The position numbers were made by a program, and so were the translations under genes. From the NCBI RefSeq assembly GCF_004366375.1, contig NZ_SOEF01000009.1:1-64000 (forward strand): a stretch of 64,000 nt of DNA, read 5' to 3'. This stretch comes from Halanaerobium congolense (lineage in GTDB: Bacteria; Bacillota; Halanaerobiia; Halanaerobiales; Halanaerobiaceae). Under the pieces are notes generated by a model. That model had not been told where the DNA came from. It was given only the letters and a program-made list of their open reading frames with translations, and made no database searches. Below, one piece after another: positions 42,494 through 49,359 of the stretch (position 1 is its first letter; every line of letters begins with the position of its first letter).

Positions 42494-43789
42494 GTGGAGA
42501 TTATTAACGCATTTGTCATTATAATTTCATTAGTTATCTTAAGTGGTTTAATAGCCTTTATTGGTGATAAAATTGGAATGAAAATGGGTAAAAAGAGGGT
42601 TTCGCTATTTGGTCTCCGCCCCCGTTATTCATCAATTATTATTACAATTTTAACTGGTGTTTTAATCGCTGTTCTTTCGATTACTATTCTGCTTGGAGTT
42701 TATTCTGAGCTGAGAAATGCTTTATTTAATATCAATGATGTTTTAAATAGATTAGAAAGATTGGACCAGCAGCTTGCAGAAAGAGACAAGCAGTTATCGG
42801 AAAGAGATCAAAAACTGGCAGCAAGAGACAAAGAATTATCTAAACTGCAGCAGGAAATTGAAAGCAGGGAAGCAGAAATCAAGGCTAAGGAAAATGAAAT
42901 CGCTGAAAAAGAAGCGGAACTGGCAGTTAAGGATCAGGAGCTGCAGGAGGTAGAAAATGAGCTGCAGCAGCTGACCAAAAATCGAAATGAGCTGCAGAGC
43001 CGAGTTAATGAACTGAGCTCCCAGCGAAATGATTTGGAGGAACAGGTATCTGAACTTGAAAATCAAATTGCAGACTTAGAAGCTGACTATGATGATTTAA
43101 GAGAGGTTGCAAATCAGCTGCAGGCCGGTGTGATCTATTATATGGGTGAGGATATGGTCTATCAGAAAGGTGATGTTATCTACAGTGATGTTCTGGAAGG
43201 CGGCCGCAGTGAGCAGGAAACTATTTCTGCTTTAAATAGATATCTGCAGGAAGCAAATCAGGTTGCAATGGAACAAGATATTCAGGTTAATGAGGAAACA
43301 GGAATGGCTTTACGCCTACAGACAGAGGATATACTAAATGCAGCTAGAATTATTTACAATATGGATCAGGGAAGCAGAGTCATTGTTTCTTTAATTTCTC
43401 GGGTTAATGTTCCTAAAAATGACTGGCTTTATGCAAACTTTCAGCTCTACGAAGATTTTGTTGTCTTCAAAAAAGATGCGTTAATCAGCAGCCGGGTTAT
43501 TAGCTCTGCTCAGAGCAGTGAAGAAATAGAAACTGAATTAGAAGCTTTACTGCAGGACGTTAATGAAAAAGCAGTTAATCAGGGCTTACTACCTGATAAT
43601 TCAGGTCAGGTTGGCTCAATTAACTTCAGTCAGTTTTATGAGCTTGTAAACAGAGTTAGATCCAGTGAAGCTGAGGTTAAAGTTAATGTCTATGCAGCTG
43701 CCAATATCTGGCGTGAAGATCGACTGAGCGATAATCTTAAGTTTGAACTGGAAGAAGTTAAAGCTGAGGAGCAGAATAATGATGGATAA
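42494..43789 (+). CDS. DUF3084 membrane-anchored coiled-coil protein
   Basis: A 431-residue protein. Two hydrophobic segments (about 3-23 and 46-70) flank MKMGKKRVSLFGLRPRYSS, a strongly conserved block of DUF3084 proteins. A long coiled coil follows (about 75-205, repeated ERDKQLSERDQKLAARDKEL), then a globular domain (about 210-425). The family is known from Cyanobacteria and diderm Firmicutes; its function is not known. The GTG start overlaps GAGAGGAGG. The place right after lptF suggests envelope work, perhaps bridging the periplasm. The 3' end overlaps the next gene by 11 nt. Confidence 0.83.
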   Translation: MEIINAFVIIISLVILSGLIAFIGDKIGMKMGKKRVSLFGLRPRYSSIIITILTGVLIAVLSITILLGVYSELRNALFNINDVLNRLERLDQQLAERDKQLSERDQKLAARDKELSKLQQEIESREAEIKAKENEIAEKEAELAVKDQELQEVENELQQLTKNRNELQSRVNELSSQRNDLEEQVSELENQIADLEADYDDLREVANQLQAGVIYYMGEDMVYQKGDVIYSDVLEGGRSEQETISALNRYLQEANQVAMEQDIQVNEETGMALRLQTEDILNAARIIYNMDQGSRVIVSLISRVNVPKNDWLYANFQLYEDFVVFKKDALISSRVISSAQSSEEIETELEALLQDVNEKAVNQGLLPDNSGQVGSINFSQFYELVNRVRSSEAEVKVNVYAAANIWREDRLSDNLKFELEEVKAEEQNNDG

Positions 43790-44198
43790 GTATTTACTTG
43801 CTTTAGATCCCGGTAGTGATAAAGTCGGCACAGCTGTTTTAGATTATCAAGCTCAGGAAAAAGAAAAAACTATTGTTAAAATAGATGAATTAATTGACCA
43901 TTTAAAGGAAATATTTAAACACTATCAGATAGCAGAGATTATAGTTGGCAATGGGACTGGAGCTGAAAAAATAATAAAGATGGTTAAGAATAATTTTAAG
44001 CAGAGTAAAATTTCTTTAGTGGAAGAAGAATTTACTACAGAAGAGGCTCAGGCCCGTTACCTGCAGGAAAAACCAATGTCTAATTATGAGAAGCTGCTCA
44101 GGAAGATTGTCAGCTGGAAGCTAAAAAAGCCTCTAGATGACTATGCAGCCCTAATCATTGGCGAAAAATATCTCGAAAAACTTGACAAAAAGCAATAA
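43779..44198 (+). CDS. YqgF/RuvX-like RNase H-fold nuclease
   Basis: A 139-residue protein beginning LLALDPGSDKVGTAVLD, the first catalytic-Asp strand of the YqgF/RuvX family, followed by IAEIIVGNGTGAEK and a C-terminal LDDYAALIIGEKYL with the last acidic residue. YqgF acts in pre-16S rRNA processing in E. coli, and relatives are Holliday-junction resolvases. Spacing of the motifs is more like the Firmicutes stand-alone variants than RuvX proper. ATG 43779 (or 43782, next codon) follows GAGGAG and overlaps the DUF3084 gene. It ends the long outer-membrane gene series. Confidence 0.72.
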   Translation: MMDKYLLALDPGSDKVGTAVLDYQAQEKEKTIVKIDELIDHLKEIFKHYQIAEIIVGNGTGAEKIIKMVKNNFKQSKISLVEEEFTTEEAQARYLQEKPMSNYEKLLRKIVSWKLKKPLDDYAALIIGEKYLEKLDKKQ

Positions 44199-44210
44199 AA
44201 CCTTTACAAT
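44182..44210 (+). promoter_or_regulatory. Upstream tandem promoter P1 of the SLH porin
   Basis: TTGACA (44182-44187) and TACAAT (44205-44210), 17 nt apart, begin inside the last codons of the YqgF gene. A small hairpin (AACCTTT 44199-44205 with AGGGGTT 44211-44217) overlaps its -10. Confidence 0.6.
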
Positions 44211-44243
44211 AGGGGTTGAAGATAAAGTTTATAAAAATTAAAT

Positions 44244-44273
44244 TTGACAGGTATATAAATTTGCTGTTATAAT
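44244..44273 (+). promoter_or_regulatory. Main promoter P2 of the SLH porin
   Basis: TTGACA (44244-44249) and TATAAT (44268-44273), 18 nt apart, with an extended -10 TG at 44265-44266. This is the best promoter match in the window and gives a start near 44280. Confidence 0.8.
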
Positions 44274-44279
44274 TTAATT

Positions 44280-44521
44280 TGCAAATTGATAATTTAATAA
44301 TGCTTATCAACTCAAAGCTAAAATGTGGCGGAAAGGAGGTGCCCCCGAAGCTGCGGAGCTGTAGAGTTATAAGAGTTCTATAATACTTATATTTACATCG
44401 ATTGGACAGATGAAGAGGAAACTAGGAAACTCGCTCGGATGTCCTCTATGATTGTATAGGTTATATTAGAACTTATATATGAAAAAAGAAAGATTACAAA
44501 CAATCAAGGGGGATTTTAATA
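44280..44521 (+). promoter_or_regulatory. Long structured 5' leader of the SLH porin mRNA
   Basis: About 240 nt without a confident gene between P2 and the porin start. Candidate helices: TTGATAA (44286-44292) with TTATCAA (44304-44310); GGACA (44404-44408) with TGTCC (44440-44444); and, exclusive with it, AGAGGA with TCCTCT around 44414-44447. An orphan perfect ribosome site, AAAGGAGGTG near 44332-44341, has no start codon at normal spacing. A 13-codon frame from ATG 44323 to TAG 44364 overlaps it. The porin's own site is AAGGGGG near 44507. The leader matches no riboswitch class I can name. Confidence 0.55.
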
Positions 44522-46504
44522 ATGAAGAGACTTACAATTACAATTGCTTTAATGTTAGTCGTAGCGTTAGCTATGCCAGCATTTGGTGCTTCTTTCTCAG
44601 ATGTACCTTCTGATCACTGGTCATATAATGCTATTAACAAGTTGGTTGCTGCTGGTATCGTTGAAGGATATCCAGATGGCGAATTTAAAGGTGAACAGTC
44701 AATGACTCGTTACGAAATGGCTGTTATGGTTAGCCGTGCTCTAGATAACATTGTTGATGAAATGGAAGCTATGGGTCAAGGTCTAACTACAGGTCAAGCT
44801 GAAGACGTAACTGCTATCGTTAAGTCCTTAATGGAAAAGAACACTAATGAAACATTAAGCGATGCTCAAGCTGAAGAAGTAGCAGATATCGTTGATGCTT
44901 TAACATTCGAACTAAGATCTGAACTTAAAGTTCTAGGTGCAGACGTAGATGCTTTAGGTAAAGATATGGACGAATTAGAAGCTAAAGTAAATGCTTTAGA
45001 AACAGATATGCCAAAAGATAACATTGAATTTAGTGGTAAAGTTACTGCTGTTTTCCAGGCTGGTAGCTATGGTGATGATAAAAGTGCAACAGCTGAAGCT
45101 CTAGCTGATGGTGATGCACTGGATATTGATTTACCACGGGCTGAAAGAACTGATGCAAATGGTAATGTTCTTTACCCTGGAAATGATGGTGGCGACTATG
45201 ATGATTTTCCAGCTGAACAGGCATTTTACCAGGAATTTGACTTTGTTGTAAATGCTGAGGTTAGCGGAATCAATCTGGATTTTGTTGTTGATACTATTAC
45301 CAATGGTTTTACTGATTACGAAGGTTATAGATATGATAACTATGAATATGTACTTGGTGACCAGGGTGATGGTAAAGATATAATGATGGATACCGGACGT
45401 TTAGATATTTCCAAAGATAACTGGATGCTTAAAATTGGAGATATGGACGATTATGATGTAGATGAGAATGCATACTTCTTTGATGTAGAAGATGCTGAAG
45501 GTGTAGAATTTACCGGTCCTGTTTATGGTCTGGATCTTAAAGCCTTTGCTATCGGTCTTGATGAAGGTGATGAAGATGAATATTATGGTGCAGCTGCTAC
45601 CAAAGACTTTGGTAAAACTCAGGTAACTGGTAAAGTCTATCAGGGAAGCATTGACAGTGAAGGTGAAAGAGTTACTGATGTTGCAGTAGCAGTTCAATCT
45701 GCTCTAACTGATGCTCTGACTGTAACTGGAGAAGCTGTTTATAATGAGTTAAACGAAGCTGATACTGATGACAGTCTATTCCAGATTGGTGCAGATTATA
45801 AATTGAGTGATATCTGGAGTTTCCGCGGTAGTTACCAGACTGTTGGTGATGAATTCAACGGTGGTGAAGATTATTATACTGGTGTTGAATCAGATCTGGA
45901 AGAAGACTATGATTTTGATAAATATACACTGGGTACTTCCTATGTTGTAAATGATAATAATAGTCTTGATTTTGATGTAATGATGGTTGAACATGAAGCA
46001 GATCAGCCACCTGTACAGGGACTGTACAACACAGGAAAAACTGATGAAGATAAGATGGAATATACTGTAGGCTGGAATAATGTTTACGGTAAATTTACCA
46101 ATCACTTCAGGGTTTCTTATATAGAAAATGACTATTATACTGATGCGATAGATGATGATGCAACAGTAGTTGAACTGGGAACAGAGTTTCCCTGGACAGA
46201 AAAAACTACTGTAAGTGCCAGTGTAGTTAACAAACAGGCAGACCTTTATGATAATGAAGGTATCTGGGACAAAGATATGCAGTATACCTATCTTACAGCC
46301 GGTTTTGATCACAAGTTAACCGATAATGTAAGCTGGTTGACAGAGGTAATGTATATTACTGGTGATGTTGAACAGTTAGATAACGAAGCCGATGATTATG
46401 ATAGTGCTGTCGATGCCGCAGGATTTAGTGACAGAATTATTGGTGAGGGCGATGCTGATATCGATGGTAGCTTTATCACAACATCTCTATCAATTAGCTT
46501 CTAA
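44522..46504 (+). CDS. SLH-domain outer membrane porin (OmpM type)
   Basis: A 660-residue protein with a signal peptide (about 1-23), one S-layer-homology domain (about 24-72: FSDVPSDHWSYNAINKL, VEGYPDGEFKGEQSMTRYEMA), a coiled coil (about 95-160) and a long C-terminal beta barrel of acidic alternating strands ending LSISF. This is the plan of OmpM/Mep45 porins of diderm Firmicutes and of Deinococcus-Thermus SlpA: the SLH domain binds a peptidoglycan-linked polymer and the barrel sits in the outer membrane. Two strong promoters, a long leader, an AAGGGGG site and a clean terminator suggest very high expression. The barrel's Asp/Glu excess fits a halophile. Confidence 0.9.
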   Translation: MKRLTITIALMLVVALAMPAFGASFSDVPSDHWSYNAINKLVAAGIVEGYPDGEFKGEQSMTRYEMAVMVSRALDNIVDEMEAMGQGLTTGQAEDVTAIVKSLMEKNTNETLSDAQAEEVADIVDALTFELRSELKVLGADVDALGKDMDELEAKVNALETDMPKDNIEFSGKVTAVFQAGSYGDDKSATAEALADGDALDIDLPRAERTDANGNVLYPGNDGGDYDDFPAEQAFYQEFDFVVNAEVSGINLDFVVDTITNGFTDYEGYRYDNYEYVLGDQGDGKDIMMDTGRLDISKDNWMLKIGDMDDYDVDENAYFFDVEDAEGVEFTGPVYGLDLKAFAIGLDEGDEDEYYGAAATKDFGKTQVTGKVYQGSIDSEGERVTDVAVAVQSALTDALTVTGEAVYNELNEADTDDSLFQIGADYKLSDIWSFRGSYQTVGDEFNGGEDYYTGVESDLEEDYDFDKYTLGTSYVVNDNNSLDFDVMMVEHEADQPPVQGLYNTGKTDEDKMEYTVGWNNVYGKFTNHFRVSYIENDYYTDAIDDDATVVELGTEFPWTEKTTVSASVVNKQADLYDNEGIWDKDMQYTYLTAGFDHKLTDNVSWLTEVMYITGDVEQLDNEADDYDSAVDAAGFSDRIIGEGDADIDGSFITTSLSISF

Positions 46505-46615: not shown

Positions 46616-47362
46616 GTGAAGAATAAAATTATAGTATTAATGATGGCTTTAATGATAGTAGGGCTTGCAGCAGGTAATGCAGCAGCATCTGAATGGGAAG
46701 CAGTTGGTGGGCTGGCAATTACAGAAACAACTTTAGATGTTTGGAATGATGTAATAGATGATCTGAATTATTCATTTGAAAATGGATTCAAAAATGAATC
46801 GGGATCTGTAATTCCAACAAGAAATGAAGAAGAGGTAGATAATATAGATAGAGTGCCGATGTTATATTTGGGTGCTAGAAAAGAAATAAATGATAAATGG
46901 ACTGGAGAACTCAGATATGAGTATATTTTTGGAACAGTTGAAGGGGAAGCAGAAGCTGTAATTGCTGGAAACACTCCTGCTGATTTTGTTTGGCAAAAAC
47001 AAGAAGCTAAAATTGATGTTAAATTACATGGAATAACTGCTCTAGCTGATTATCAATTTAATGATAGGTGGACAGTTGGTGGTGGTATTGGGTTTTATAA
47101 AGGTACTAAAAATAAAGATTTTGAAGGAGCAATTTTTCAAGCAATTAATGCAAGTGGTGCGAAAGTAACGCCAGATGATAAAGATTTCGATCTTGATGCA
47201 GTAAGTTATCGTCTTGGTGTAGGATATGAAAAACCTTTTGCAGAGAACTGGGATTTTAATGCTAATCTGGATTATCTCTATATGGAAATAGATGATGAAG
47301 ATGACGGAAATATTTACAGTAACGGATTTTCATATGGTGTTGGTGTAACTTATAGTTTCTAA
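46616..47362 (+). CDS. Small outer membrane beta-barrel protein
   Basis: A 248-residue protein with a signal peptide (about 1-24, AAGNAAASEW at the cut region). The rest is made of alternating amphipathic strands (VPMLYLGARKEIN, WTGELRYEYIFG, ITALADYQFNDRWTVGGGIGFY, YRLGVGYEKPFAENW) and ends YGVGVTYSF, a terminal-Phe barrel signal recognised by BamA. Eight strands are likely, like OmpW or OmpX. Substrate and role are unknown. The GTG start follows GAGGAGGAATT. It lies between the porin terminator and a bidirectional terminator, so it is a separate unit. Confidence 0.8.
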   Translation: MKNKIIVLMMALMIVGLAAGNAAASEWEAVGGLAITETTLDVWNDVIDDLNYSFENGFKNESGSVIPTRNEEEVDNIDRVPMLYLGARKEINDKWTGELRYEYIFGTVEGEAEAVIAGNTPADFVWQKQEAKIDVKLHGITALADYQFNDRWTVGGGIGFYKGTKNKDFEGAIFQAINASGAKVTPDDKDFDLDAVSYRLGVGYEKPFAENWDFNANLDYLYMEIDDEDDGNIYSNGFSYGVGVTYSF

Positions 47363-48306: not shown

Positions 48307-49359
48307 ATGAAAAAAATAATTGCATTACTAATTGTTTTTCTGCTCTTAGTTTCATTTAATGTTTTTGCTCAAGAAAATGATCAATTAAATACTGAAGCGA
48401 CAAGTTTAGAAGATCTTAACCTGTCTCAGGAGAAGAATTTTTCTCGATCTGCAAGAGAGGAACTGCTTGGTATTGCCTCACAGTTTGACAGTGCAGAAGA
48501 TCAGGAAATAGATCAATTAACTTTTGAGAGTGAGAATTTCTCATTAACAGAGTCAACACTTAATAATTCGCAGCAGTTAAATATTTTAAATGACTTAACC
48601 TTTGATGCAGATTATTCTAAAGCAGAAGATGAAAAATTGGAAACAGCAGCTGATTTTCAATTAGAATATGCTCTTAACTCCAGAACTTTACTTAGAGCAG
48701 GTTATTCCATCTTAAATGAAGAATGGTGGGATGTTCGCAGTAAAACTGCCGCTGCTGAAGAGCCGTCAACAGCTGATGATGGTAGTGATTCTGTTTCTAA
48801 AAATAATATTATTAGTGATGGAAGTGCTGCTGAAGATTTCAGTCCAGAAAATGATAATCCTGCTGCAGCCAATAACAATGTGCGTAAGGTTTATCAAAAC
48901 GAATTGGAGAGCAGCCGCAGTCTTGGTGTAGCTTACAGAACTAACAACCGATTTACTTTATCAGCTGATTTTATAGATAATAATGAATTTGGAAGTTATT
49001 ATGATGAGGACTGGGAGATTGCGGGAGAATCAACAGTTTTTGGAGTAGAATATAGTTACCCGAAAGGTTCTTCAATTAGAGCTCGTTATCAGGTTGACAC
49101 TGCAGATGATATTACTCAAAGAGTAACCGGTTTTGATTTTGATTTTAATAACTTAGCAACCTTTAGTGCTTCTTACAAATTACTAGATTTAAATCGATTA
49201 GCTAATGATTTAAATCAGCAAAAGACTGCCTGGGATTTAGGTTTGGGAGTTAACATTAGTGAAAATTATGGGTTGAATTTTGGTTATGAGAGAATAGAAG
49301 CTGAAGGCGAGGAAGAAGCTGAACAGAAAGTTAGAGCTTCTTTTGAAATAAACTTTTAA
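48307..49359 (+). CDS. Putative outer membrane beta-barrel protein
   Basis: A 350-residue protein with a signal peptide (about 1-21, NVFAQEND). A low-complexity acidic segment (about 22-75), strands, a Ser/Asp/Asn/Ala-rich loop (about 145-195) and then a run of amphipathic strands (SLGVAYRTNNRFTLSADF, TVFGVEYSYPKGSSIRARYQ, WDLGLGVNISENYGLNFGYE) follow. It ends KVRASFEINF, with the terminal aromatic of outer-membrane barrels. No family recognised. The ATG follows GAAAGGAGGC. The repeat-containing periplasmic gene starts 27 nt later and is probably co-transcribed. Confidence 0.72.
   Translation: MKKIIALLIVFLLLVSFNVFAQENDQLNTEATSLEDLNLSQEKNFSRSAREELLGIASQFDSAEDQEIDQLTFESENFSLTESTLNNSQQLNILNDLTFDADYSKAEDEKLETAADFQLEYALNSRTLLRAGYSILNEEWWDVRSKTAAAEEPSTADDGSDSVSKNNIISDGSAAEDFSPENDNPAAANNNVRKVYQNELESSRSLGVAYRTNNRFTLSADFIDNNEFGSYYDEDWEIAGESTVFGVEYSYPKGSSIRARYQVDTADDITQRVTGFDFDFNNLATFSASYKLLDLNRLANDLNQQKTAWDLGLGVNISENYGLNFGYERIEAEGEEEAEQKVRASFEINF

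Follow-up and report, generated by a model that had tools for sequence, protein, structure and literature searches.

Translational riboswitches and ribosomal-protein leaders include pseudoknots in which a leader loop pairs with the Shine-Dalgarno (SD) sequence and sequesters the ribosome-binding site (RBS). In Thermus thermophilus HB8, the 5′ UTR of slpA is said to bind protein and reportedly mediates translational autocontrol by SlpA. The STAB-SD of cry3A is a non-initiating SD-like site in the 5′ UTR, on which a parked 30S subunit stabilises the mRNA (PMC4113751). The Cyano-1/Yfr2 RNAs (RF01701) are free-standing cyanobacterial sRNAs with a 12-nt loop GAAACAAGGAAA on a long stem; the loop sequence was taken from the primers and a figure legend of PMC2662882, and the consensus of the covariance model agrees with it. 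For Synechocystis, the same paper describes Yfr2b and Yfr2c as transcripts that begin at the start sites of genes downstream of them (PMC2662882).

The leader studied here precedes an SLH porin gene of Halanaerobium congolense in a window (the whole stretch of DNA analysed) of 64,000 nt. It resembles riboswitches and ribosomal-protein leaders in having a loop predicted to pair with the SD, but differs from them in that an SD mimic adjoins the anti-RBS and that Rfam has no match for it: at the gathering score, Rfam 15 gave no hits in the window and none in 20 diverse loci. No description of the leader was found in a literature search of open-licence papers. With the cry3A STAB-SD it shares a non-initiating, 16S-complementary SD-like sequence in the 5′ UTR; the former is an isolated sequence, whereas the mimic is part of the loop of a conserved hairpin, next to an anti-RBS. 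The slpA 5′ UTR of T. thermophilus HB8 likewise precedes an SLH porin, and slpA leaders of the Thermus, Meiothermus and Deinococcus type (L294–L304) carry the same capped hairpin ~60–100 nt before the start codon, but an SD-mimic loop was not found at the expected place. Common to the leader and Yfr2 are the 12-nt loop GAAACNNGGNNA, a long hairpin, and an upstream G-rich motif of the AGGAG type; however, Yfr2 is a free-standing sRNA for which an RBS pseudoknot has not been described, whereas the leader is located in cis before porins.

The 5′ neighbour of the leader is a RuvX-like gene (43782–44198), and the leader, ~240 nt in length, ends at the porin ATG at 44522. The porin (44522–46504; features of the leader and porin are on the + strand) has 660 aa, an SLH domain at residues 24–67 and a C-terminal phenylalanine. 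By analogy with relatives (PMC9388160), it is plausibly the most abundant outer-membrane protein. Its RBS AAGGGGGA (44506–44513) has a GGGGG core (44508–44512), which is rare as an SD core (3 of the 57 ORFs of the window). A previous sequence-only reading had proposed tandem near-consensus promoters, and both were recovered as the top two of 24 promoter-like sites between 43000 and 46500. The main promoter, TTGACA-18-TATAAT with TG before the −10 box (44244–44273), matches the consensus at 12/12 positions, and the upstream promoter, TTGACA-17-TACAAT (44182–44210), at 11/12. The upstream promoter was in place in 8/8 close relatives inspected and the main promoter in 7/8, with the pair kept at constant spacing to the start codon in 7/8. 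Transcription from the main promoter is predicted to start at ~44280. The upstream promoter has its −35 box within the final codons of the RuvX-like gene (44182–44198).

Hairpin A (44303–44373) is formed by three stems: P1 (44303–44307/44369–44373 and 44309–44313/44364–44368, with C44308 bulged), P2 (44316–44319/44357–44360) and P3 (44324–44329/44350–44355). P1 and P2 were recovered by local minimum free energy (MFE) folding, and P3 was not. As a lone sequence, the leader folded better than shuffles with z = −2.7, which is weak taken alone; the structure proposed earlier for it is nevertheless firm through sequence comparison. A covariance model of hairpin A built on 12 order-level sequences (R1) gave an alignment with 92% of cells paired, compared to 40–57% with one arm slid, and 7/19 pairs showed changes on both sides. 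Arm complementarity was also seen in the pan-phylum set described below. RNAalifold on the raw MAFFT alignment returned almost no structure because the genus and order registers are offset by a bulge; the order-level alignment was used instead.

The loop of hairpin A carries the SD mimic AAAGGAGGTG (44332–44341) followed by the anti-RBS CCCCC (44342–44346). The mimic is perfectly complementary to the 3′ tail of the 16S rRNA of its own genome (CACCTCCTTT) and was found in most class-level homologues recovered without specifying its string. The same earlier reading had described it as an orphan SD without a usable start codon, the true start (ATG 44522) lying ~180 nt further, and both statements held. 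ATG, GTG or TTG occurred 4–11 nt past the mimic in only 19 of 51 non-redundant related leaders and the lengths of the ORFs were not conserved, so there is no conserved start after the mimic. We therefore give almost no credence to translation of a leader peptide or short ORF from this site: the SD is strong, but start-like codons are present in a minority of the leaders, the ORF lengths are scattered, and the segment past the mimic is constrained as an anti-RBS instead. A STAB-SD is characterised by strong complementarity to the 16S rRNA and the lack of an initiation codon; the mimic shows both, and it lies near the predicted 5′ end. A stabiliser of the cry3A type, with a 30S subunit on the mimic blocking the 5′–3′ RNase J, a long-lived porin mRNA and a secondary role for the loop:RBS pairing, has a precedent (PMC4113751). 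As the whole explanation, we regard it as unlikely, though worth keeping in mind: it does not require a conserved fold and leaves both the covarying anti-RBS and hairpin B unexplained.

The pairing of the anti-RBS with the GGGGG of the RBS was examined in the 51 non-redundant leaders by calculating duplexes between the 17 nt following the mimic and the 21 nt preceding the start codon. The mean energy of each loop with its own RBS was −13.1 kcal/mol, compared to −9.7 kcal/mol for re-paired leaders, and none of 5000 re-pairings was as strong as the own partners. Composition confounded this simple re-pairing test, and G+C-matched and shuffled controls were therefore added. When re-pairing was restricted to leaders of like G+C, the z-score was −7.1; with dinucleotide shuffles as the control, z was −11.9 and −13.1. 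In a sliding-window test, the excess of own partners appeared solely in windows over the RBS. Compensating pairs of loop and RBS, the letters of which were not part of the search pattern, were ACCUUUUGAAC/GUUCAAGGGGU (L128), CUCUCGAC/GUUGAGAG (L159), CCCUAAGU/ACUUAGGG (L126), CUUGGUAG/CUACCAAG (L137) and CGUUCCCC/GGGGAACG (L184). In two paralogues from the same genus (L038 and L039), both sides had switched jointly to AACACUUC/GGAGUGUU. The fourth porin of a Negativicutes MAG had a loop that matched its own RBS alone (−9.3 vs. −0.7). Pairing was poor in some leaders (L129, L139). In the genus of the window, the CCCCC:GGGGG core was invariant across the leaders read; the GGGGG core should still pair with the anti-SD via G-U, which would fit a double constraint. 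As in RBS-sequestering leaders, comparative evidence thus shows an element of the leader that pairs with the RBS. The mutually exclusive helices suggested earlier stood in one sense only, namely the MFE fold against the evolutionary fold, and CCCCC:GGGGG against ribosome access.

Hairpin B (44374–44473) lies between the two partners. Its stems (44374–44380/44467–44473, 44385–44392/44454–44461, 44404–44408/44440–44444 and 44415–44417/44430–44432) were predicted by MFE folding and supported by cross-phylum covariation of the arms, the complementarity of which was far above controls (z from −11 to −18). The hairpin is topped by the cap GAGGAAACNNGGNNACUC, also given as GAGGAAACTAGGAAACTC (44415–44432), inside which the 12-nt loop (44418–44429) is identical to that of Cyano-1/Yfr2. 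Hairpin A, hairpin B and the loop:RBS pairing were all shown by sequence comparison to covary. Paralogues L040 and L042 from the same family and genus kept a covaried cap AAGGAAACNAGGCAACUU and lost the mimic AAGGAGGTG. Since these paralogues and the slpA-type leaders keep the cap without the mimic, the modules of hairpins A and B are separable. The sequence-only reading mentions neither the anti-RBS next to the mimic nor the invariant cap.

With the Cyano-1 model, the leader of the window scored 16.1 bits and the best relative 28.7 bits (E = 0.007 for one genome), both below the cut-off of 41 bits. Twelve Deinococcota genomes were chosen as being without the full pattern, and in 10 of these the best Cyano-1 match lay directly 5′ of slpA, with none over the cut-off. 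Homology to Yfr2 is therefore a serious possibility and not a result. The identical loop, together with the use of start sites of downstream genes by Yfr2b and Yfr2c in Synechocystis, could mean that the leader is cleaved off to work in trans, as Yfr2 does, and that its SD-like loop and cap serve as interaction surfaces. We consider this improbable: the loop and the RBS of the same gene covary, which is a signature of action in cis, and a terminator looked for downstream of the leader was not found. The invariant loop strings and the RBS-sequestering pseudoknot also make up a typical layout of a translational riboswitch, in which the loops of hairpins A and B would form an aptamer and a small molecule or ion would lock or open the pseudoknot. 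The target, however, is a porin and no metabolic or transport set indicates a ligand, and free-standing Yfr2 sRNAs have this loop too, so that we find a riboswitch rather unlikely. Among candidates tried and rejected, a lysine-riboswitch-like core had no Rfam match even at a permissive E-value. CsrA sites (GGA motifs) were discarded on the second GGA of the cap, which is not conserved (GGC and GGU occur). A cap made of tandem GNRA mini-loops, each closed by one pair, conflicted with the Yfr2 closing pair as deduced from the primers in PMC2662882.

We consider it probable that the leader is a cis-acting translational switch, in which a pseudoknot masks the porin RBS and docking of a 30S subunit on the mimic opens it. 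The comparisons support the structure and the masking; we infer the docking and the factor as well as the signal and the direction of the effect. In this reading, the anti-RBS pairs with the true RBS ~165 nt downstream, and the resulting pseudoknot has hairpin B inside it and keeps the RBS hidden. By means of its 16S tail, a 30S subunit could dock on the mimic. The mimic complements this tail and the anti-RBS follows it immediately, so a docked subunit should require an unpaired anti-RBS, single-stranded in its mRNA channel. Docking and the pseudoknot would therefore compete. Docking would then free the RBS and bring the 30S subunit near it (standby loading). A trans-acting factor may bind the invariant loop of hairpin B and shift the balance between docking and masking; the most likely signal would be feedback, from the porin or from the state of the envelope. 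The porin itself is the first candidate for the factor because the slpA leader of Thermus is reportedly a target of SlpA autocontrol. A STAB-SD function could coexist with the switch. The standby or stability element suggested earlier is possible, as the sequence of the mimic fits the STAB-SD/standby definition, but it would be part of the story only. The switch offers a testable account of the orphan SD.

The leader is present in a single copy in its own genome. The 11 remaining genomes of the genus have it ahead of the porin with 78–93% identity, and shorter matches, found in further families of the order and class, were likewise 5′ of SLH proteins. R1 matched in 45/59 genomes of the class and in 17/299 genomes sampled from the phylum. 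Where the downstream gene was read, a porin was next in nearly all cases, with the SLH domain present or absent; matches L097, L102, L118 and L119 were treated as false, the porin being absent downstream. The pan-phylum pattern, which combined the SD mimic with the hairpin B cap, was searched over 84,980 species and gave at least 117 stretches, 80 of which were readable as loci among the matches listed. In this set, the invariance of the mimic and the cap is by construction because both (AAGGAGGT and the cap) were fixed as strings; independent support for it comes only from the protein-anchored and R1-anchored sets. At least 69 elements from these 80 loci were ahead of a gene encoding a signal peptide. 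Pfam domains of ten sampled downstream proteins included SLH, SlpA-barrel and Porin_4, and two of the ten were without a match. Eight matches from Ruminococcus/Oscillospiraceae (L131, L145, L146, L150, L158, L170, L177, L179) were removed, being rpsC/rplP coding sequence by translation. They fall at the end of rpsC and the start of rplP, a conserved coincidence misleading to a string search. Matches L165, L190 and L201 were treated as chance.

By record label, the Bacillota hosts among the matches listed were Halanaerobiales, Limnochordales, Negativicutes and others; further hosts were Deinococcota (mostly Trueperaceae), Candidatus Atribacteria, Synergistetes and one MAG labelled Planctomycetales. 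These labels are provisional because many hosts are MAGs. A shorter pattern was found in 34/398 genomes of the phylum of the window, compared to two for its reversed form, and in 35/111 Deinococcota genomes, compared to one match when reversed. Temperature or ionic strength could melt a structured leader that masks the RBS, and an RNA thermometer or salt sensor had been among the roles first suggested. The same architecture, however, occurs in non-halophile lineages and across G+C extremes, including digester Bacillota, Trueperaceae, Atribacterota and Synergistota, which disfavours a salt sensor, and nothing specific supported a thermometer; the chance of such a halophile-specific device seems very slight. 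The suggestion of a previously undescribed cis-regulatory RNA controlling the porin is strongly supported, as the leader is conserved, covarying, located before porins and not in Rfam. Conservation and covariation among relatives, on which that suggestion hinged, were both clearly present in R1, the loop:RBS pairing and the arms of hairpin B.

Such leaders represent a common, previously uncatalogued control point on the main porin of bacteria with SLH-tethered outer membranes, and they tie the little-understood Yfr2/Cyano-1 loop to porin leaders. Because the design precedes porins in at least four phyla, this control on an outer-membrane protein is probably old and widespread. Tentatively, it could be an ancient class of cis-regulatory RNA that predates the split of several deep-branching diderm phyla and, through competition between SD mimic and anti-RBS, links free 30S subunits with the synthesis of the outer-membrane-tethering porin, its shared loop having become the trans-acting Yfr2 in cyanobacteria; we find this conceivable but doubtful. 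If vertically inherited, the leader would be a molecular trace of outer-membrane regulation in early diderm bacteria.

In the window, the porin gene is followed by genes of two more secreted proteins. The second (48307–49359) had no Pfam match, and the first (46616–47362) matched the outer-membrane beta-barrel domain PF13505.
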